Shown here in pieces: positions 1 through 64,000 of a stretch of DNA of 64,000 nucleotides. The notes under the pieces were generated by a model. It had not been told where the DNA came from. It saw only the letters and a list, made by a program, of their open reading frames with translations, and did no database searches. Numbering within the stretch: the stretch's first letter is position 1; each line of letters begins with the position of its first letter. A program made the position numbers and the translations under genes. Source of the stretch: Saitoella complicata NRRL Y-17804 (taxonomy: Eukaryota > Ascomycota > Saitoellomycetes > Saitoellales > Saitoellaceae); contig NW_017567001.1 in NCBI RefSeq assembly GCF_001661265.1, positions 1 to 64,000 of the forward strand, written 5' to 3'.

Positions 1-54
1 CCCTAACCCTAACCCTAACCCTAACCCTAACCCTAACCCTAACCCTAACCCTAA
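1..54. repeat. Telomere repeat tract, (CCCTAA)9
   Basis: Nine uninterrupted CCCTAA hexamers start at base 1 and stop at base 54. This is the C-rich strand of the TTAGGG telomere type common to filamentous fungi and many other eukaryotes, so the window begins at a chromosome end. The real array is probably longer, since assemblies usually trim telomeres. There is no degenerate transition zone: unique coding-like sequence begins at base 55. Confidence 0.97.
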
Positions 55-36512: not shown

Positions 36513-39500
36513 TCACAAATCACCAGATAGATATGCCTCCAACGCTTCCTGAATCAAATACCTCTTGTTCTTCAGACTCATCCCAAACTTCGCCTCCAAC
36601 TCTCTCCTTACCGTTTTCGTCGTCAAGCTCGAATACGACTCATCCCCCTGTGCCTCCGCAACACGAAGAATCTCCCCAATTTCACTGATGATCACGTCGT
36701 CGGACGGCATCTGCTGGAAAGTAATCCCGGGAGCACGAGCAACCGGAGCAGGCAACGCTGCAAGAATCGGCTCGCTCGAACGATCGGACTGGATGGAACG
36801 AAGATGACTCAGATGCTGACTCCCAGAAAACGTGGATCCCGCTTGCGACGGCGTGTATCTGTCGGAATCCTCTATGAGAGTAGCCATACGCGCCGTCCTT
36901 TCCAACTCCCGGAGTGCCTCCCTTTGAGCGGAATCTAGTCCATGGTCACTGAGGCTCGTAGATTGCTGCCTTGTGTCGTACCTGATAGGCTGGAAGCTCG
37001 ACCCAAAGGATGATGTTGAATTAGAGAGGACGGAGGGGTGCGCGCTCTGTCGCGGAAACGATACTGAGTTCCGTGGCAGATTATTCATGTTCCACATGAA
37101 CGGCAGCGGAGGGTCCTCTGGTCCGCTGCTGGAAGACATTGTAGGAGCGATGGTATGCGTCCGTTCCGAAATCGAGAAAGACCCGCTCTTGTCCGAGTTT
37201 CGCCCGGGCACAGCAGTGACGTTGACTTGGACAGCGGATCCCTTCTCCATTCTCGCTTCCGCCTCTTTGGCTTCCTTGGCAGCCTTGCTGTGCATCAGAA
37301 TTTCCACATACTCTTCCCAGGTTCTTCGGGGGATATCGTTGGGGTCAAAGGTACCTTCGTCGCTGATAACGATCTTCCTGCCCTTTTCACCCATAACGAC
37401 ACGAGTTGATCCCCACGAGAAGTCATCCATGTGCCAGAAGGAGTACAACGGAAGTAGTACTGAGTAGATTGGAATAGCCAAGATGAAAAGAATCATGAAA
37501 CCCGTCATCTCCCATTTGCGACGGAAGATGAAGACAAGCGCTTGTAGGCCGTACACCAAACCCAACAGAACAAGAGACAAGACGGGCACCGAACTGGTGT
37601 TTTGAATGATTCTGTAGATGAGGTAGGCCAAGTAGCCGACAGTAACGGGTTGTATGAGAGTAGCCGCCAGATCCATGAACACAATGAACCTCATAGAGAA
37701 ACAACAGAACCCACAGAGTTGCTTCAAACCAGTCAACTCGAGGAGGTTGTGAATCGTCGAATTAATCCATCTTCTTCTCTGCGAGATCAAGACACTCCAC
37801 TCTGACGGTGCCACTGTCTTCGCATACGCATCTCGAATGAATTTTGTCTTGAATGACGGGTGATGTTTCATGAGAAGAGTCGTCAAGTAACGGTCTTCAC
37901 CTAAGTGAAGAAGGTTCTTGAGGTGAAGCGTATCAACACGGTTGTTCGAGTAAGCGTCAATAATATCATTGCTGACGAACAACGGATCATTGTCCTCGTT
38001 GCGAATCCTGTACATGGAGAAACATCCAGGCAAGCAGGTAACCGAACCAAACAAAGATTCGAAGTTTTTGGCGAGGTTGTGAGAAAGGAAATATTCGTAA
38101 GGCTGAATCATCGTCGTGAAGGATTCCTGTTTGCCATCCAGTCAGCTACCCTATCGCGGTTAACAGGAGTCACGCAAACCTTGGGATTCTGCAAACTCGT
38201 TTCTCCACATGCACCGATCAGGCGAGTATCATGAATGAATGCGGACACCAACCTCGTGCAAGCATCAGGTGCGACGATGGTATCTGCGTCAATCATCAAA
38301 CAATACTCATACAAACTCGGGTGCACACCAATAACATCGTGAATTTGATGGTACATAGCAAGTTCAAGAGGCGTGAGTAAGTCCTTTTGATTCACTCGGT
38401 TCAGGAAGCGCATCAGAACCATCTGTGAATCACGTTTACCACGGTTACCAGCACGAATAACCTCACTGGGCTTGCCTGCCTTCACGATAACCAGGTAAGG
38501 TACAATATGTCCCGCAACTTCGTACAGACCAGCGTACACCTTACCCATATTGTGCTGCTTCTGCCCTTCACCAAGAGAGTCGAAAGACAAAGGCTCTGGG
38601 TCGAAGGAGGGGTCATGTCCAAGAATATCTAAGATAATGCGCGGAGTAGGTTTCGTATTGCCGGCGCCGACGACATTTCCATCGCAAACGATGAACATTA
38701 GTTTCCTCTTGTCTTCATACCTCATCTTGGCAAGCGAGTCGATGGACTTCCGCAGAGACTCTTCGTCTTCAGTATAGGCTGGCATCATCATGATGACAAA
38801 TTTGTCAAGCTTCTCAGGCTCTCGAGTCTTTCCAAATTGCAAAGCTGCGAAAAATTTGAAAGCAATGATCGACATCAAGGCAATAGAAATAATGAGGACC
38901 AGGTAATTCGCAAAGATACATCGTGCAGAATTACGGTTGTCCACTTTACCAATGAAGAAAAGGTTCCGCAAACAAACCCGCATTCTCAGCTGAAGATCTG
39001 CGTCAAGATTCAGTTCAGCGAGAGCCTTGGTAAGGTCAGCACCCGCTCGCTGCTGGAAGAGATTGACGACATCTTGATCCATGAAATTAGTGTCGACGCT
39101 CTCCGGGGTGGCTTCTTCGCCCGCGACGAGGATGTGTCTGCCGCCCTGAATATAAGACGACAGGTCGTATACATTGCCATCAATGATACCCCATGCTTGT
39201 TGGTTTTGCGCCTGCTTCCGGATATATTGCCTCGTGTAACCCATGTAACCTGTCCTGAACTGCTGTCGCAGCAAAGTCATAGAGTTCCAATACCAGTCAG
39301 GGCGCGAGTCATTTGTGAAGGATCGGAAGTCGTGGTAATGAGCATTATTATCAGTCGAGTTCACTCCAATGAAATCCAACGTGACAGATGGATCGACTGA
39401 GCCGGTCGTCCCTTGACATAATGCAGAGACCTGAACTGGAAACAGTTTCGTTGCATCAAGACCAGCGTATTTCAGGACCGCACTTGAGGGCACAATGCCA

Positions 39501-42498
39501 CTCGGGGGATGAACAGGTGCAAACTGGGTCAGGTCGAATACTTCACCGCGAATTGCAGCATAAGCTGCATCCGGATTATTGTCATTGCTATGACCGATCA
39601 ACTCTTGCGGACTGAATACATACTCCTTTGGACAAATAAGCTCACTCACGCCAACGATAAAAAAGACAGAAAAGGCCAAGAGCAACCAAATGAGCATGTT
39701 GATGGCGAGCTTTTCTCTCCACGCCATTCTCACATCTTTCCGCTTCATTCTTCCAACATGGCGGATCAGGAAGTCGGGGATCCACCAAGTCAGAAAGTAC
39801 ACGATGAATACCCATCGCTTACGCGCCCCAGTGACTTCGTGGGTTTCTGTAATTCGCTCCTCCTCCACAGCACGAACTGCAGCGTCTTTCTCCAGCATAC
39901 TCCTTGTCTCAAGATGCTGGAACAAGTTGCCGGTTGATCCATTGAAGTCCGAGGTAGTCAGATAACTCATTGGGCGCAACTCCATGTCATTAGAACCCCG
40001 CCTAGACGGAGCTGACAAAGGCGTCCCTGGCAAACTATTCTGATCATTGAGATCAGGGACGAGAGACGCCCCAATCCTCCTCGCATTTTCTTGTAAGCCT
40101 TGAACACCCTCTGCGACCTGGGCTCGTGCTCGTACATACGAGCTAGCCCAACTCGCTTCGCCAGAGTCTGGAGTAGACACGGGGATCTCCTCTCTGCGGA
40201 TATCTTGCCTATTATCTTCCCAAAATTGAGCAGTCGCAAGCGCCTCGTTCACCTTATTAGCCTCCAGGAGATACGCGAGAGCGGCATCACTCAGGAAGAC
40301 TTCACTCTGGCCCACGAAGATGTCTTTCTCGGGCCAATCAATCTGACGAGCAGCTGCAAGACAGGCATCTCGTTCGTTGGAAATATAACCTGGGTTATGG
40401 ATACCCATAGCATCCAGGTCGACGTAGTTGTCAAGAAATACTTTATGAGAGAAATGAATGGTGTAGTCGTTCTCCTTCACATGCTGTGCCAAATCACTGA
40501 GCCCAAAAGTTTGTACTTGAAGCAACATACAACCTGAGTCAAACTGGTTGGCAAGGCGCCTGTCATTCGGCTTCAGGCAAATGAGGAACCACGTCTGACT
40601 ACCGTCAATGCTCTCCTTCAAACTTCTCAACGCATTGGCGAACTGTCCCGCGACACCGGAGACTTTGTCCTTCTTCTTTTCCGCCAATGCGGCGGCAGTA
40701 GCCGTTCTTCTTGCCATACTCGGCTGTCTCATAGGCTTGGAAGGCAATTGCGCCTGAGTGATGGTCGTCTTACTTCTCGGGTGTACCTCCATCTTCACGG
40801 CTTCACTCTTGAATAACCTCGCGACGAAATCGTTGCTAGTAGGAGCCAGCTGAGAACCACCCTCAGCCATTACCTCTCCGCGGAAGATCGTCATCAAATC
40901 ACCGGAGATGACATCCGTGTTCGCTTCCAATAGGTTCGAGCAGTCATATGTGACTTCATCCCAATAGTGCTTGACCATGAATGCTAGGCGAGAGTCATAT
41001 CCGGCTTGCGAAGAGATCTTGATGTCATCAGAGGATGCAAACCTCTTTTCCATTGCGAGCATGAACTGACTGTTCGTTTTCCCCTTCGAGTGTTTGCCCG
41101 TGTACTCATCCAGCATGGCAAACACACCATCCGAAGGACGAAGGAAAGTGTCCAGCAAAGTCGTGTTATCGAGATATGCCGCAGTAGGGGCCTCAAGACC
41201 TTCAGCTTTGTAAAGTTCCGTATCCTTCTCGTAGTAATGCGAGAACATAAGTCGCTGAAAGGTTTCGTTGGCCATATTGACAAACAGGCCGTCCATAACT
41301 GTCTCTGAATCATTTTGCATTCCAGGGAAATCGATAACGGATATGGTGTTCTGTATATTACTTTCATCGACACATAACCTGGAATTCAACTTCTCTACAA
41401 TCCAGGACCAAAGCAGCGAGTAAAGTGTACGCGCCAGATCCTCTGTATGAGCTTGTGCAGCCCGGGCATCGAGCATAAGCGTAACTCGCTCGCGCTTCAC
41501 CATCGTCGTCTTGAATGCCAATGTCATCTCGAGCGTCTCCGGTACGACACCAAGAAAAGCACTTGCCGCAGCCAAAACGTTTGTATTCCGTACTTTGGCG
41601 TATTCTTGATCAGAGTTTGGCTCGACAAACTCTAGTTGTCCGAGGTGGAGGATAGCGGCCATGAGCTGTATGCACTGAGCGATGTCATCTTTGCTGATAC
41701 CGACTCGGCGCATTGCGGTCCTGAGATGTAGGAACCCTTCTTCATCATTGATGAGCCCTTGATGGCGTTGGTTTGGGTGACCAAGGTAACGATATCTAGC
41801 GTTCGGGTCCAACTCCAGGTGACTAAGGTCTTCCGGAGTCAGGCCTGAGAGGAGGTAGTAGAAGGCATGAAAGTTCCTCTCTGCAATGGGGACTTTCGGG
41901 ACACGAGATTTCTCCAGCTTATAATCCAGAAATTTTGCGCCGGTACACTCTGCTTTGGCGTTGTACTGCATTTCTAAGTACAATCCATACCGCGAGGCAT
42001 TCATTGAGTTGACGGTCTTTGCATGGCCAAAGGATTCAAGGATGAATTGAGCAGCGTCAATGCGGGTTATGAGGGATTGCGAGGAACATGTCTTGAACAA
42101 CAGGGAGGAAACGACGGTACGTCGGTTATGCGACTTTCCAGAGTTGGTCTCGCCGAGGAGAAGGATGGACTGCGGTGTTGATGAGATTTTCATGTAAGTC
42201 CATACCTGTAGTAGTCTGTTAGCATTATATCAGATGCCTGAAGACTGTCCCGCACCTTTTCAGCCCATTTGTTTACCGTAACCTCAGGTTCCGTGTCCGG
42301 TGTTTGTTTGCCTTGTTCCGGTTCGACATCTCCCACATCTTTCCAGGGATTGATGCTGAGAAGAGTAGATGTACCGACTGTCGCAGCGAACTTGTTTACA
42401 GAAGATCGCTGACGAAGCTGAGCTACGAGCGTTTCATCACTCACAACATCGAGAGTCGAAAGGTCCTGAGCGACTGGAGCTGAATAGTGAGCAGCCAT
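36513..42498 (-). CDS. Chitin synthase with N-terminal myosin motor (class V type)
   Basis: Plasma-membrane chitin synthase carried to growth sites by its own motor domain. Exons 42498-42256, 42205-38180 and 38126-36513 (introns 50 and 53 nt) give 1960 aa. The motor occupies about the first 780 residues with P-loop GETNSGKS at 99-106. Membrane segments and a cytochrome b5-like region ([19 protein letters not shown]) follow. The GT2 catalytic part has [46 protein letters not shown] and the signature QRRRW at about 1539-1543. A DEK_C domain closes the protein (about 1905-1960). An intact P-loop and full motor fit class V (CsmA-like) better than class VII. Complete, with no disabling change seen. 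Confidence 0.96.
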
Positions 42499-45341: not shown

Positions 45342-48262
45342 TCACGCTGCTTCAACCGGTCCCAAATTATTTAAGTTTCCCTGCTGCCTATGCCTACTAG
45401 CCTCCCTAGGCCGTTCATCTCTGCGTTCAGCGTCTCCCTTTGACTTTGCCCGATCACCCTTACTCTTCCTGAAACAAGCAAACTGAGTCGCCGTTGCTTT
45501 CCTAGCGTGTTGCAATAGGTGCTTGACATGTCCAAGCTCAGCTTGTAGGTCCTCGGCGGAGACATCGGATGAAGTGTACCCGTCTTCGATGGCTCTGTAG
45601 ACCATGCTGAGCTTCTCACCCGCAGTGGAATCAACAAACTGACTCAGTGTCTGGTGGAAAAATTCCACTTCAAGAGTTGCCTGAAGCATGCCACCCACAC
45701 CAAATCGGTCAATCCCGCGGATAGCGTCCAGAAGGTCTTGTGCCAAGGAGTTGGTAAGCGCAGTAATGATGCGTCCAAGCAAACTCGGTGTCAACGTCCA
45801 GACCTGGGAATGAACCAAAACGAGCGTAACGAGGGCGTCATATACATAGCTGTGTACTTCGACCGGCCGTGGCAAAGTTGCCCAAGGAATACCCGAATTG
45901 AGCACACCACCTCTGATAATCTCCGATACAACACGGGCCTTCCCACTGATATACCGCTTAAACAGCCTGTCATCTGCTTGTTCGAGGACATTGATAAGCG
46001 TCCTAAGATCCTCTGTCATACCCAAAGAGAATGCCAACTCGAACTGGTTGATGAGCTTCGGGATGACACTCTCCTGCATCTCCGCCAGATTGCTGACCGT
46101 AAGCAAAATGCGGGTGTCTGTATCACTTGCGTCCACCTCCCTGATCTCCTCAGCAGTCACTGCAGAAATGCGCTTCTTTGTCGTGGGTGTCGGCACAGCA
46201 TTCAATGACAGCGCTAAACTGCAGATATCCTGCTGTACAGTATACAACCCGCTCAAGAATGTCGACCGCACCGCGCCGATCATCTTCGCGGTAGGCATAA
46301 CCTGCGGTACCTTCTGAACAGCACTTCCCGAAGTCGTATTGGCCACATTCAAGATCTTCTCAGCATTCGCAATGATAGCTCTCGTGTACGACTGAATTGC
46401 GCGGGGGAATCCTGTATTGTCATGATTCTCCGTCGCACGAGTCCAGTTCTCCAGACGGACAAGGTGCTTGGTATCTTGTTGCCAAGCCTTACACACCGCG
46501 TCATTAAAGTGCTGCATCGCCGTTCCCAAAACAGTTCGTAACGCATCAGTCACTGTAGATGAAAGCCCAAGAGAATGAATTTCACCGACAGCTTGTGCGA
46601 TCTCCCTAAGCGTAGACGACAAATATCTCGACGTACTAACAGCATTCGCATGAGCCGGCACGAACGCAAGAACCTTTCCTCCATTCACTGCAGGTAGAGC
46701 CGGAACAGGCGGAACACCACCAACCGGTGTCGACGGCTCCATATCATCAGCCATCAAAGCCACAGGCGGACTCGAAATAAACTCCCCCATAAGTCGACAA
46801 ATCAACAACACAAGACCTTCCACCATGCCCCGTAACTGTGCCACCTGCATCTGATCCAGCGACAGGTGCTTCTTGGAGATACCGTTCGGACCCGTCGGCA
46901 TTGACTTCTGCGCCTTTCCATCGACGAAACTCTGGACGGTACGCCAGAACTCAATCAAGAGATGCGCACCGAGTTCACTCATCATATCATCCACGAAATC
47001 GCCGAGAGCCTCCCACATCTCGATGATTTCCTCAGAATCACACTGGAACGCAAACTCCTGCTTTGGATGGAAAGGAACGCGGAGGTAGGACACGAGTTGC
47101 TTTACTGATGGTGCCGGTTTCGCTGCGAGTTTGCGGCGGAGGGTTTCGAATTGGATACGGTCTTGTTCGAAGGTGGCGGTGATCATGTTGCGAAGGCGGT
47201 TGTGTCGTACTTGGAGGTATTGCCAGATAGGATTGTCGTCAATGCCAATTTCGAGAAGGTATCTGCACGTCATGAGGTCAACTTTGAGCAATTGATGCAA
47301 TGCCAAACCTCGACGTACCCTATTGCCTTCATTTGCTGTTCGTCCGTCTTCCCCTCACCGCTCAACCCATCCCAAAGATCCTTCTTCCAGTTATCCACAA
47401 TCCGTTGCGCCTCATTCCATACCTTCTCAAAGATCCTCCGTTGACTAACCATCAAAGCCGTCCCTTGCTGGTTCGGATCCGAAGCCTTGTATTCCTTGAA
47501 CAAATTCTCACCCTTGCGATACTCGCGAATCAACCCCTCGTGATCCTTTCTCCTTTGACAATCCAGCAGTGTCGATGGAAGGTTGAAATATGATTTGTAC
47601 CGATCTAGGACTCCTAGTGTTGAACGGAGCGTATTTGCCTTTTCCCTGTTCTCCATAATTGGCGTGAAGATCTGTTGTGCCTTTGCGTTCGCATCCAACG
47701 TCGCACTCTTCAGTGCACCGATACCGTAGTCGTTCTCCCTATTCAGGGTTGCAGATTTCATGTCCTGGTACACGTCGTCGATCGTTGATTTAGCTGTCAC
47801 GAAGCGGTCAAAGTTTTGACCAACGAGCTCTTTCACATCGTCCCGCCGTTGCTCGATAGAGTGTTGTAGCCAGTCCTGACCAGTCCGGAGTTCTGAGTAT
47901 GATGCATTGGCGTGAATATCTCGCAGAAACGTCCGAGGCTGGAAAGTTTTCGATGTAATCATATACTGCGCCCGAACCTTAGGATCCGTATCGATTTGGA
48001 TACCCTTCCTCCGCAGCACATTCGACACCGAATCCACCATCCCTAGCGGATCACTATCATCTTGCGACAGCTCATCGATCTCCGTTGCCGGATCCTCCTC
48101 CTGCTGCAACACCTCATACCGCGAAGCTCGCCGTGCACCATAAGCAGAGTTGCTCGACGCAGGCTTTGGTCTTGAGGTGTCCTTCCAGTGGTGAGGTTCT
48201 AGGGAGTCGAGGTTGTATTTGCGTAAGATGGCAGCATTCTCTGAACCTGGATCGTAGTTCAT
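45342..48262 (-). CDS. SEC5: Exocyst complex subunit Sec5
   Basis: Part of the octameric exocyst that tethers secretory vesicles at sites of growth. Exon 1 (48262-47319) and exon 2 (47262-45342) with a 56-nt intron give 954 aa. The N-terminus MNYDPGSENAAILRKYNLDS and the block FLRDIHANASYSELRTGQDW with LVGQNFDRFVTAKSTIDDVY are the conserved Sec5 coiled region. The rest is the helical-rod architecture of exocyst subunits, ending in a basic tail. Length is near that of other fungal Sec5 proteins. Head-to-head with IDH2. Functionally it pairs naturally with the neighbouring motor chitin synthase, whose delivery depends on exocytosis. Confidence 0.92.
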
Positions 48263-61146: not shown

Positions 61147-61533
61147 TCATGATTGATCTACAAGCGTCAAAGACGACGACCCTCCCATAGCCTTGATAAC
61201 AAACTCCGCCGTCTCTCTTACCATCTCCGGTGTAACCTCATGTCCAACCCCCTCGTACACCTTAATATACTTCTCAATCTCCGGGTCCCTCCTTACCTTC
61301 CCAACAAACTCATCCGAACAATCCCACGGTACGAGTTGATCCGCGCCGCCACTGAGTACACATACGCTCTTCCCATGTAATCTCTCCAAGCCATCTTTCA
61401 TCGCTGCCGGGTCGAGTTCCTTCAGAGTCTCGAGGAGAGATTTAGGGATATGCGGGGCGGAGAAAGGAAGGTTGGACGTCCCGGTACGGTGTCTCATCAA
61501 CTTCTCATAATCCGGGCACCCAATAATCACATT
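61147..61533 (-). pseudogene. Alpha/beta hydrolase, 3' half (separated by inversion)
   Basis: The last 128 codons of a fungal alpha/beta-hydrolase (esterase/peptidase-like). Recognisable sequence starts abruptly at NVIIGCPDYEKLM (61533) and runs through LSGGADQLVPWDCSDEFVG, with the likely catalytic Asp, and VYEGVGHEVTPEMVRETAEF, with the catalytic His, to TGA/TAG-bounded 61147. The nucleophile-serine half is not upstream on this strand; it lies on the plus strand at 62142-62685. Upstream of 61533 the minus strand reads into the 5' part of a RING-type ligase gene in another frame. Broken unless the assembly is wrong here. Confidence 0.8.
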
Positions 61534-62014
61534 TAGGCGGTTGGGTTGTTGGTGCGCGATGCTTGGCTGCAGTACCCTTCGGCCCTGAATGCTCACCCTT
61601 CAAGGCGGCAGAGTAATCCATCCAGTCCACGGATACTGGCCCCAGCCTCTGATCGATTTGTGGAGTTTGCTTCTCGTTGTCGTTATCCGCTTGTAAAGTA
61701 GCCTTCGTCGGCGTCGCTGGCGTGGGAGGAACTCCTTTCGATTCCTCCTTTGGCTTCACAGAGAGCTTCGGCGGTCTCGCGGCTTTCTTCCCAGCGAAAT
61801 AACTTGCTCTCCTACCTCTCAAAAGCCCAAGCCCAATGCCGCAACTGTGATGCGACGGTAACTTCTCGAAGATATCCTTGGGTATATGCGACTCCTGTGT
61901 CGCCGTTGTTTGCCGGATGATCTCCGGATGAATGCTTTGTAGTTGTTCGAGAACTTTGGGAGAGGAGGTAAATGCTGATACGGGGTATAACTCGAATGTC
62001 AGGTGAAAGGGCAT
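61505..62014 (-). pseudogene. BRAP2-type RING/UBP ubiquitin ligase, 5' half (inverted)
   Basis: ATG 62014 opens MPFHLTFELYPVSAFTSSPK, followed by HSCGIGLGLLRGRRASYFAG, a Lys/Pro-rich linker and LGPVSVDWMDYSAALKGEH. These look like the N-terminus of a BRCA1-associated-protein-2-like ligase. About residue 160 the sequence crosses the presumed junction near 61,536 and ends after roughly ten unrelated codons at 61505. The matching BRAP2 domain, RING and UBP finger lie on the opposite strand from about 62,690 onward. The start is 127 bp from, and divergent to, the hydrolase start at 62142, so the two genes shared a promoter. Confidence 0.75.
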
Positions 62015-62690
62015 TGCCCTCCTTCAAAGGATGGTGGAGTGTTTTGGTGGTCGTGTACGCGTGGGTGCGTTCGCGGTCGCGGGTTCCTGATTCCGCGAGA
62101 TCCCCGCTCCAGTGCCCGTGAACTCACCACCATCGACTACAATGACCTCACGAGCTGAATTCACTATTGCCGGACTGACCACCCACGTCTATGGCCTCGA
62201 GAACCTCTCCAGCACTCCCCGCGAACTGAGCGTGCTATTCTTCCTCCACGGACGCCTTGGATACGCCCTTGAACCCCGTTACGAAGCGCCCGTTCATGCG
62301 ATCCTCAAGGCTCATGCGGACGCGAAGAAGGAAGGCCGGGTACAAAAGGATCTAGTGATCGTCACCTTCGACCAAAGGAACCACGGCCACAGAAAGGTAT
62401 GCTGTTTGTATTGAGGCATATGTACGTGTACTCTTTACTGACGAACGAACAGATCCACGACCTCCCAAATCTGACCTGGACAGAAGGTAACGCCCTCCAT
62501 GCTCAAGACATGTTCTCCGCCCAATACGGCACCGCAACCGATGTCTCCCTCCTCATCCGCTTTCTCCCTTCCTATCTGTTTCCGAACGATGAGAGGAGGG
62601 TTGCGGAGTGGATGTGTGCCGGGATCTCATTGGGTGGGCATGCAACGTGGATTGTGTTGGAGCACGAGAAGAGAGTGAAGACGGGGATGG
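61536..62690. other. Inverted segment that splits two genes (about 1.15 kb)
   Basis: The 5' halves of a hydrolase gene (plus) and a BRAP2-like gene (minus), with their common promoter, lie here in the orientation opposite to both 3' halves. Flipping this segment in place would put hydrolase 5' (ending VLEHEKRVKTG) next to hydrolase 3' (NVIIGCPDYEKL) on the minus strand, and BRAP2 5' next to BRAP2 3' on the plus strand. Both junctions give the expected order. Boundaries are estimated to within about 10 bp. I saw no inverted repeat at the two ends. Confidence 0.75.
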
Positions 62691-62728
62691 ACAATTTATC
62701 CCCATCAACGATGCTGGAAGGGGCCTAG
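62142..62728 (+). pseudogene. Alpha/beta hydrolase, 5' half (inverted)
   Basis: Exon 1 (62142-62396) and exon 2 from 62453, with a 56-nt intron, encode MTSRAEFTIAGLTTHVYGLE, the oxyanion-side strand LSVLFFLHGRLGYALEPRY, IVTFDQRNHGHRK and the nucleophile elbow AGISLGGHATWIVLEHE. Homology ends after RVKTG near 62,685; the frame then runs 15 unrelated codons to TAG 62728, inside sequence that belongs (in another frame) to the BRAP2-like gene. The serine nucleophile is thus on this strand, while the Asp and His are on the minus strand at 61147-61533. Confidence 0.8.
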
Positions 62729-64000
62729 AATCCGGCACGGCTGAGCTTGGCATCGGAATTGTTCATCTATACCGCAGTGAAGATGATGAACCTCCTGTCC
62801 CTGAAGCCCTCTCCGCAGGTCAAAATATGACGGAAGAAGACAAGGTTGTAGCGATCCTCGCCGTGCCGAGTTATATGACAGCGTCCGATTTCCTAGGATT
62901 TTTGACTCCGGAGGCTCGAGATGGTGTCTCGCATTTCCGAATGATTCGCACGGCGGCACCGAATCGATATATGGTCCTCATGAAATTCCGAGAAACAGAG
63001 GCCGCGAAAGCTTTTCAAGCAGCTTACAATGGCCGACCCTTCAACTCCATGGAACCCGAAACCGCACACGCCGTCTTCATCAAATCAATCACCTTCCAAT
63101 CCTCAACATCCCCGCCACCCTCTTTCTCCTACCTCCTTGACGATCCCTTCACGCCCGAATCATCACCCCCGGGTACCGGAACCGGAACCGTCATCCCAAC
63201 CCCACCACACTCGAAACCACCACCGCCGCCTACCCCTGCCCTTCGAGAACTTCCCACGTGTCCAGTATGTTTAGAGCGTATGGACGCATCTGTGACAGGC
63301 CTCCTCACAATTCTCTGCCAACACACCTTCCACTGTCAATGTCTGAGCAAATGGGGTGACAGCACGTGTCCCGTATGCCGGTACTCCCAAAAGAAAGACG
63401 TCGCAACCCAGTCCTCCGAGGCATCCCGCTGCGGCTCCTGCGGCGCCGTCTCAAATCTCTGGATCTGCCTGATTTGTGGGAATATCGGATGTGGGCGATA
63501 TGACGAAGCACATGCCTACAGTCACTACGTCGAGACGAATCATCTATACGCGCTGGAACTTGAAACACAGCGAGTATGGGATTACGTGAATGATTCCTAT
63601 GTCCACCGTCTCATCCAAAACAAGGCGGACGGGAAATTGGTCGAGCTACCATCTGCCTCCTCAACGGGTCCGGGTATGTACGCGCCTGCACCACAACCCG
63701 GTGATTATGTCCCGAGGGATAAATTGGATGCGGTGGGGTTAGAGTATACGTATCTTCTCCAAAGCCAATTGGATTCACAGCGGCAGTATTATGAGGATAA
63801 ACTACTTACGGCGGTGGATAAAGCCTCGAAAGCTACGGCGGATGCGGAGAAAATTAAGACAAAGCTGGACGAGACGACGACGGCGTTGTCTGTGCTTCAA
63901 GTTGAGCATGCGACGCTGACGAGAGAAATATTACCCAAGTTGGAGAGCGAGAAGACTAAGGCTGAAGCAAAAGCGGGGAAGCTGACGGATATGGTGCGGA
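62690..64000 (+). pseudogene. BRAP2-type RING/UBP ubiquitin ligase, 3' part, runs off the window
   Basis: Open frame from about 62,690 (reading INDAGRGLESGTAELGIGIV) to the window end with no stop. The BRAP2 RRM-like domain includes VVAILAVPSYMTASDFLGFL and RYMVLMKFRETEAAKAFQ. RING-H2: CPVCLERMDASVTG, CQHTFHCQCLSKW, CPVCRY (about 63,260-63,380). UBP zinc finger: RCGSCGAVSNLWICLICGNI, GCGRYDEAHAYSHYVETNH (63,430-63,540). A coiled coil starts near 63,750. No ATG precedes the first conserved block; the first in-frame ATG is 62827, inside the domain. The missing N-terminus is on the minus strand at 61536-62014. A shorter protein from 62827 could still be made. Confidence 0.8.

Follow-up and report, generated by a model that had tools for sequence, protein, structure and literature searches.

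At the left end of the 465,998-bp contig C10 (NW_017567001.1) of Saitoella complicata NRRL Y-17804, we analyzed a window of 64,000 nucleotides (contig positions 1 to 64,000). Listing of its open reading frames and reading of the DNA revealed two back-to-back genes, a BRAP2/Etp1-type RING/UBP ligase and an alpha/beta hydrolase, which lie in four open pieces. Telomere repeats stand at both ends of the contig (CCCTAA repeats at window positions 1–54 and TTAGGG repeats at the far end, position 465998), so C10 looks like a complete chromosome of 466 kb. The whole assembly that we searched comprised 14,122,262 bases in 34 contigs, and the S. complicata genome has been described as 14.1 Mb (PMC4447899). 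Both described Saitoella species are believed to be saprophytic, according to the available excerpt of a published account (PMC7912804).

The 3′ part of the hydrolase, with its stop codon and the conserved Asp and His, was located on the minus strand at 61147–61531, as assigned from alignments and from residues 191–299 of the relative P0121. It was followed on the same strand by the 5′ part of the ligase (61532–62014, matching residues 1–163 of the relative P0001), which begins with an ATG at 62014. Reading of the DNA placed a 127-bp intergenic region, presumed to hold both promoters, at 62015–62141 between two divergent start codons. On the plus strand, exon 1 of the hydrolase (62142–62396, assigned from the P0121 match and relatives) was separated by a 56-bp GT..AG intron of phase 0 (62397–62452) from exon 2, which carries the nucleophile motif GISLGG and runs to a break (62453–62688, from the P0121 match and the alignment of relatives); the two exons joined in the alignment. 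The 3′ part of the ligase occupied the plus strand from 62689 to the window end at 64000 and on to contig position 64245, as supported by the Pfam domains, the P0001 match, and the open reading frame. Its first in-frame ATG, found with the breakpoint script, was at 62827–62829, where the BRAP2 domain match starts. A preliminary description of this DNA had reported four such pieces on opposite strands, and they were present within a few bases of the positions that it gave, with two corrections: the 5′ half of the hydrolase contains the intron, and the ligase passes the window end.

The 3′ part of the ligase matched PF07576 (BRAP2, 1.4e-30), PF13639 (RING, 3.8e-8), and PF02148 (zf-UBP, 6e-24) in order. 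The other three pieces had no Pfam match above the curated cut-off and were therefore identified via relatives. A search for relatives of the ligase gave 4,586 proteins at E values up to 1e-3, and the best 120 were used. The top match was P0001, an unsplit protein of 678 aa from S. coloradoensis. When P0001 was compared with the whole genome, residues 159–678 matched C10:62683–64242 on the plus strand with 95% identity, and residues 1–163 matched C10:61523–62014 on the minus strand with 82% identity (E 1.6e-79), both with no internal stops. Elsewhere in the genome, P0001 had three weaker matches only (on C25, C28, and C14), covering at most 99 of the 678 residues with 29–36% identity. Among the best 120 of the 4,586 ligase relatives, the 5′ piece had a significant match in one, that of S. 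coloradoensis, and the Neolecta protein P0008 gave faint alignment support at the ligase start and the join region. The 5′ end of the ligase is weakly conserved, and the join of the two ligase pieces depends mainly on S. coloradoensis.

For the hydrolase, the search for relatives gave 581 proteins, of which the best 120 were used, and a further search gave 54; 154 proteins were compared in all. The top match among the best 120 of 581 was the Neolecta protein P0121 of 313 aa, and the gene is intact in Neolecta and other fungi. P0121 matched the plus strand at 62145–62417 (residues 35–120) and 62444–62701 (residues 111–196) and the minus strand at 61198–61533 (residues 191–299), with E values of 3.3e-13 to 1.6e-33 for the three matches. 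The match in exon 1 extends into the intron, where it contains one TGA. The 5′ half of the hydrolase matched all 154 proteins, and both halves matched 153 of them; in each of these 153, the 5′ piece preceded the 3′ piece, the two being separated by a median of 2 residues (range 1–46). None of the 274 proteins (120 ligase and 154 hydrolase relatives) was matched by either of the pairs that are fused in the assembly. The comparison with related species proposed in the preliminary description thus found no split gene, as the hydrolase order was kept in 153 of 153 proteins and the S. coloradoensis ligase was whole.

Residues S172, D255, and H285 of P0121 are invariant in 15 hydrolase relatives, and the pieces in the window carry all three, which are presumably the catalytic residues. 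The 3′ piece of the hydrolase alone scored 16.4 bits in Pfam against a cut-off of 27, and NCBIfam gave only matches far under its cut-offs. Sequence searches with the 3′ piece or with P0121 found no solved structure. Among the best 120 of 581 matches from the protein database (about 160–511 aa) and the 54 more (about 101–322 aa), no hydrolase came from Saitoella, although a close relative should head such a ranking and the S. coloradoensis ligase is present in the database. The gene may be lost, it may be modeled otherwise or at another length, or the S. complicata proteins may not be included; the missing entry decides nothing.

To locate the breakpoints, a script reversed the segment for 24 × 24 = 576 pairs of breakpoints, checked whether both genes were open, and then scored the pairs that opened both against P0001 and P0121. 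Both genes were open in 183 of the 576 pairs, so open frames by themselves count for little. The top-scoring pair was 61532/62688, giving a segment of 1,157 bp (61532–62688, each end ± a few bp) with no base gained or lost; the restored ligase is 679 aa long and the restored hydrolase 291 aa. The eleven pairs ranked next were at most 5 bp away at each end and 11–23 points under the top score of 3,996.5. A single reversal of this segment brought back the arrangement of the relatives with both genes in frame, and the GxSxG serine, Asp, and His of the hydrolase stood in order once its pieces were combined. The proposal in the preliminary description that one inversion of about 61,536–62,690 explains all four pieces and that its reversal restores the Ser-Asp-His order was borne out, with ends a few bases off. 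It is almost certain that the assembly differs from the relatives by a single base-neutral inversion of about 1,157 bp, and the inverted state is derived because the relatives are unsplit.

At the best-fit junctions, there was 0 bp of microhomology, and among 25 of the 32 inverted-match pairs, no inverted repeat beyond chance was found at the ends. Within 60 bp of both breakpoints, no inverted match exceeded 8 bp, and the one of that length did not line up with the ends; of 1,000 random pairs of places, 19.5% had an equal or better one. The window contained no N bases, and both junctions were gap-free and unique. In the assembly, the locus and each of the two genes were found once only, and the locus in a single orientation.

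Since the start of each gene lies in the segment, along with the divergent region between them, both genes stop early as assembled. The ligase frame crosses the break and reaches a stop at 61505–61507, giving 169 aa, and the hydrolase frame ends at 62728, giving 176 aa. Neither half of the hydrolase should be active, because the serine motif is on the 5′ piece and the Asp and His are on the 3′ piece. For the ligase, a shortened protein is conceivable because the ATG at 62827 opens the BRAP2 domain match. According to the available portion of one report, deletion strains of ETP1 are in use in baker's yeast and show sensitivity to ethanol and arsenite (PMC9041338); since such strains are in use, baker's yeast can bear the loss of this family.

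Across the pieces, 2,904 coding bases contained no stop. If all pieces decayed neutrally, such an outcome would have a probability below 5% beyond d = 0.028 when stops only are counted, and the bound falls to d = 0.013 or 0.0085 when indels at 5% or 10% of substitutions are included. Without the 3′ part of the ligase, which might still work, the bounds under the same three models were d = 0.065, 0.029, and 0.019. Thus, the open state of the pieces implies that the genes, if broken, broke recently (neutral change below about 1–6%). Compared with S. coloradoensis, the 5′ piece of the ligase had an amino-acid distance of 0.18 and its 3′ piece one of 0.048.

As a control, Pfam was run on 30 open reading frames in or beside the window. 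They comprised 29 of the window's 32 non-overlapping frames (ATG to stop, at least 150 aa) and one frame beside it. Matches at E 1e-8 or better were obtained for 15 of the 30, and in this sample, which covers about 0.5% of the genome, no other domain was found on both strands. A half-length isocitrate dehydrogenase match proved to be one long open frame on a single strand, and two further matches covered part of their profiles (an acyltransferase at positions 76–131 of 132 and a myosin head from position 80). Within the window, a myosin-motor chitin synthase (36513–42193) and the exocyst subunit Sec5 (45342–48262) were each found on the minus strand in two adjacent frames of the same strand, presumably with an intron between them, a short one in Sec5. 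The S. coloradoensis ligase gene is on a contig of 469,789 bases, and C10 is of similar size.

The arrangement most likely arose either by recent mutation or through an error of assembly, and the change is of an ordinary kind. We modestly favor a real recent mutation of the sequenced strain (probability roughly 0.58), since both junctions are gap-free, unique, and exact to the base; this figure and the weights given to an assembly error and to the small remainder are judgements. The unsplit relatives, the restoration of both genes by one base-neutral reversal, and the lack of a second copy, of N bases, and of an inverted repeat that could mislead an assembler all modestly support a real event, as do the lack of any other domain on both strands in the small Pfam control and the viability of ETP1 deletion strains. 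Under such an event, each gene would have suffered one double-strand break, the two lying about 1.2 kb apart, and end joining without homology would have put the segment back the wrong way round. The promoters would have traveled with the segment, so that each would now drive a truncated protein, one of 169 aa without a ligase domain and the other of 176 aa that lacks the Asp and His of the hydrolase. The hydrolase would then be a null allele, and the ligase would be null or would at best start at the ATG at 62827 and yield a shortened protein. Conservative joins that lack both microhomology and an indel at either end are not the most frequent product of end joining, which weighs against a real event. 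It also counts against it that the open pieces fit an assembly error too and that the ligase join depends mainly on one relative.

In the case of an assembly error, the segment would be misoriented and both genes would be intact in the living strain. This is a real possibility, although short of an even chance. Every piece is open and free of decay, as expected of a misplaced segment, and a gap-like run of 422 N is present on the same contig (C10:83328–83749), the sole one in the 22 loci examined (210,400 bases, some of them overlapping). However, misplacement of a contig usually shows in gaps, overlaps, or missing sequence, whereas the junctions here are free of N bases and of inverted repeats beyond chance, and not a single base is duplicated or missing.

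The preliminary description had named a recent event, a reversible switch, or an assembly error as the cause; the first and the last are still candidates, but the switch found no support. A switch would require that the segment flip repeatedly without flanking inverted repeats, or that both orientations coexist in the population, with the two genes turned on and off together. Such behavior is very improbable here. One flip would indeed hit both genes, as both starts lie in the segment together with the stretch between them, and none of the pieces is damaged. Yet the inverted matches at the ends were at chance level (8 bp; 19.5% of random pairs), the relatives examined carry both genes unsplit, and the assembly contains one place in one orientation, although an assembly may show only one. 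With neither microhomology nor an inverted repeat beyond chance and with one orientation found, a programmed switch is without support. It is equally improbable that the inversion is older and that its pieces, chiefly the 3′ part of the ligase, were kept as separate working genes: that part retains the BRAP2, RING, and UBP domains, has an ATG at the domain start, and shares 95% identity with its counterpart in the sister species, but the nucleophile of the hydrolase is on one piece and its conserved Asp and His are on the other, and the open frames of the other pieces, if neutral while the ligase 3′ part works, bound the age at d of about 0.02–0.065. An old inversion with a working hydrolase was also considered and is unlikely, because no single piece carries all of the conserved residues.

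If the favored recent mutation is real, it represents a clean, young, homology-free inversion that broke two divergent genes by turning the region between them together with both starts, and the absence of decay bounds its age. If the arrangement is an artefact, it warns that the apparent breakage of both genes in S. complicata would stem merely from the assembly.

The locus was not reported in the titles and abstract openings of a limited sample of papers on small inversions or micro-inversions and on S. complicata with inversion. Small local inversions in yeast genomes were reportedly described by Seoighe et al. in 2000. The ligase has the same domain set as the BRAP2/Etp1 RING/UBP family, and its 3′ part is 95% identical to the S. 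coloradoensis member, but in this assembly the gene is divided between the strands. According to the available excerpt of a study on Drosophila melanogaster and D. pseudoobscura, inversions of kilobase scale or smaller were likewise found via relatives, and the main doubt, that of an assembly artefact, was met with PCR and reads (PMC1779558). In that excerpt, the Drosophila cases lie in introns or near genes, whereas here both ends are in the coding sequence of two genes and the inversion is known from the assembly alone. In Saccharomyces genomes, small local inversions are said, in the accessible part of the source, to encompass a few genes (PMC4915352), whereas the Saitoella inversion breaks two.
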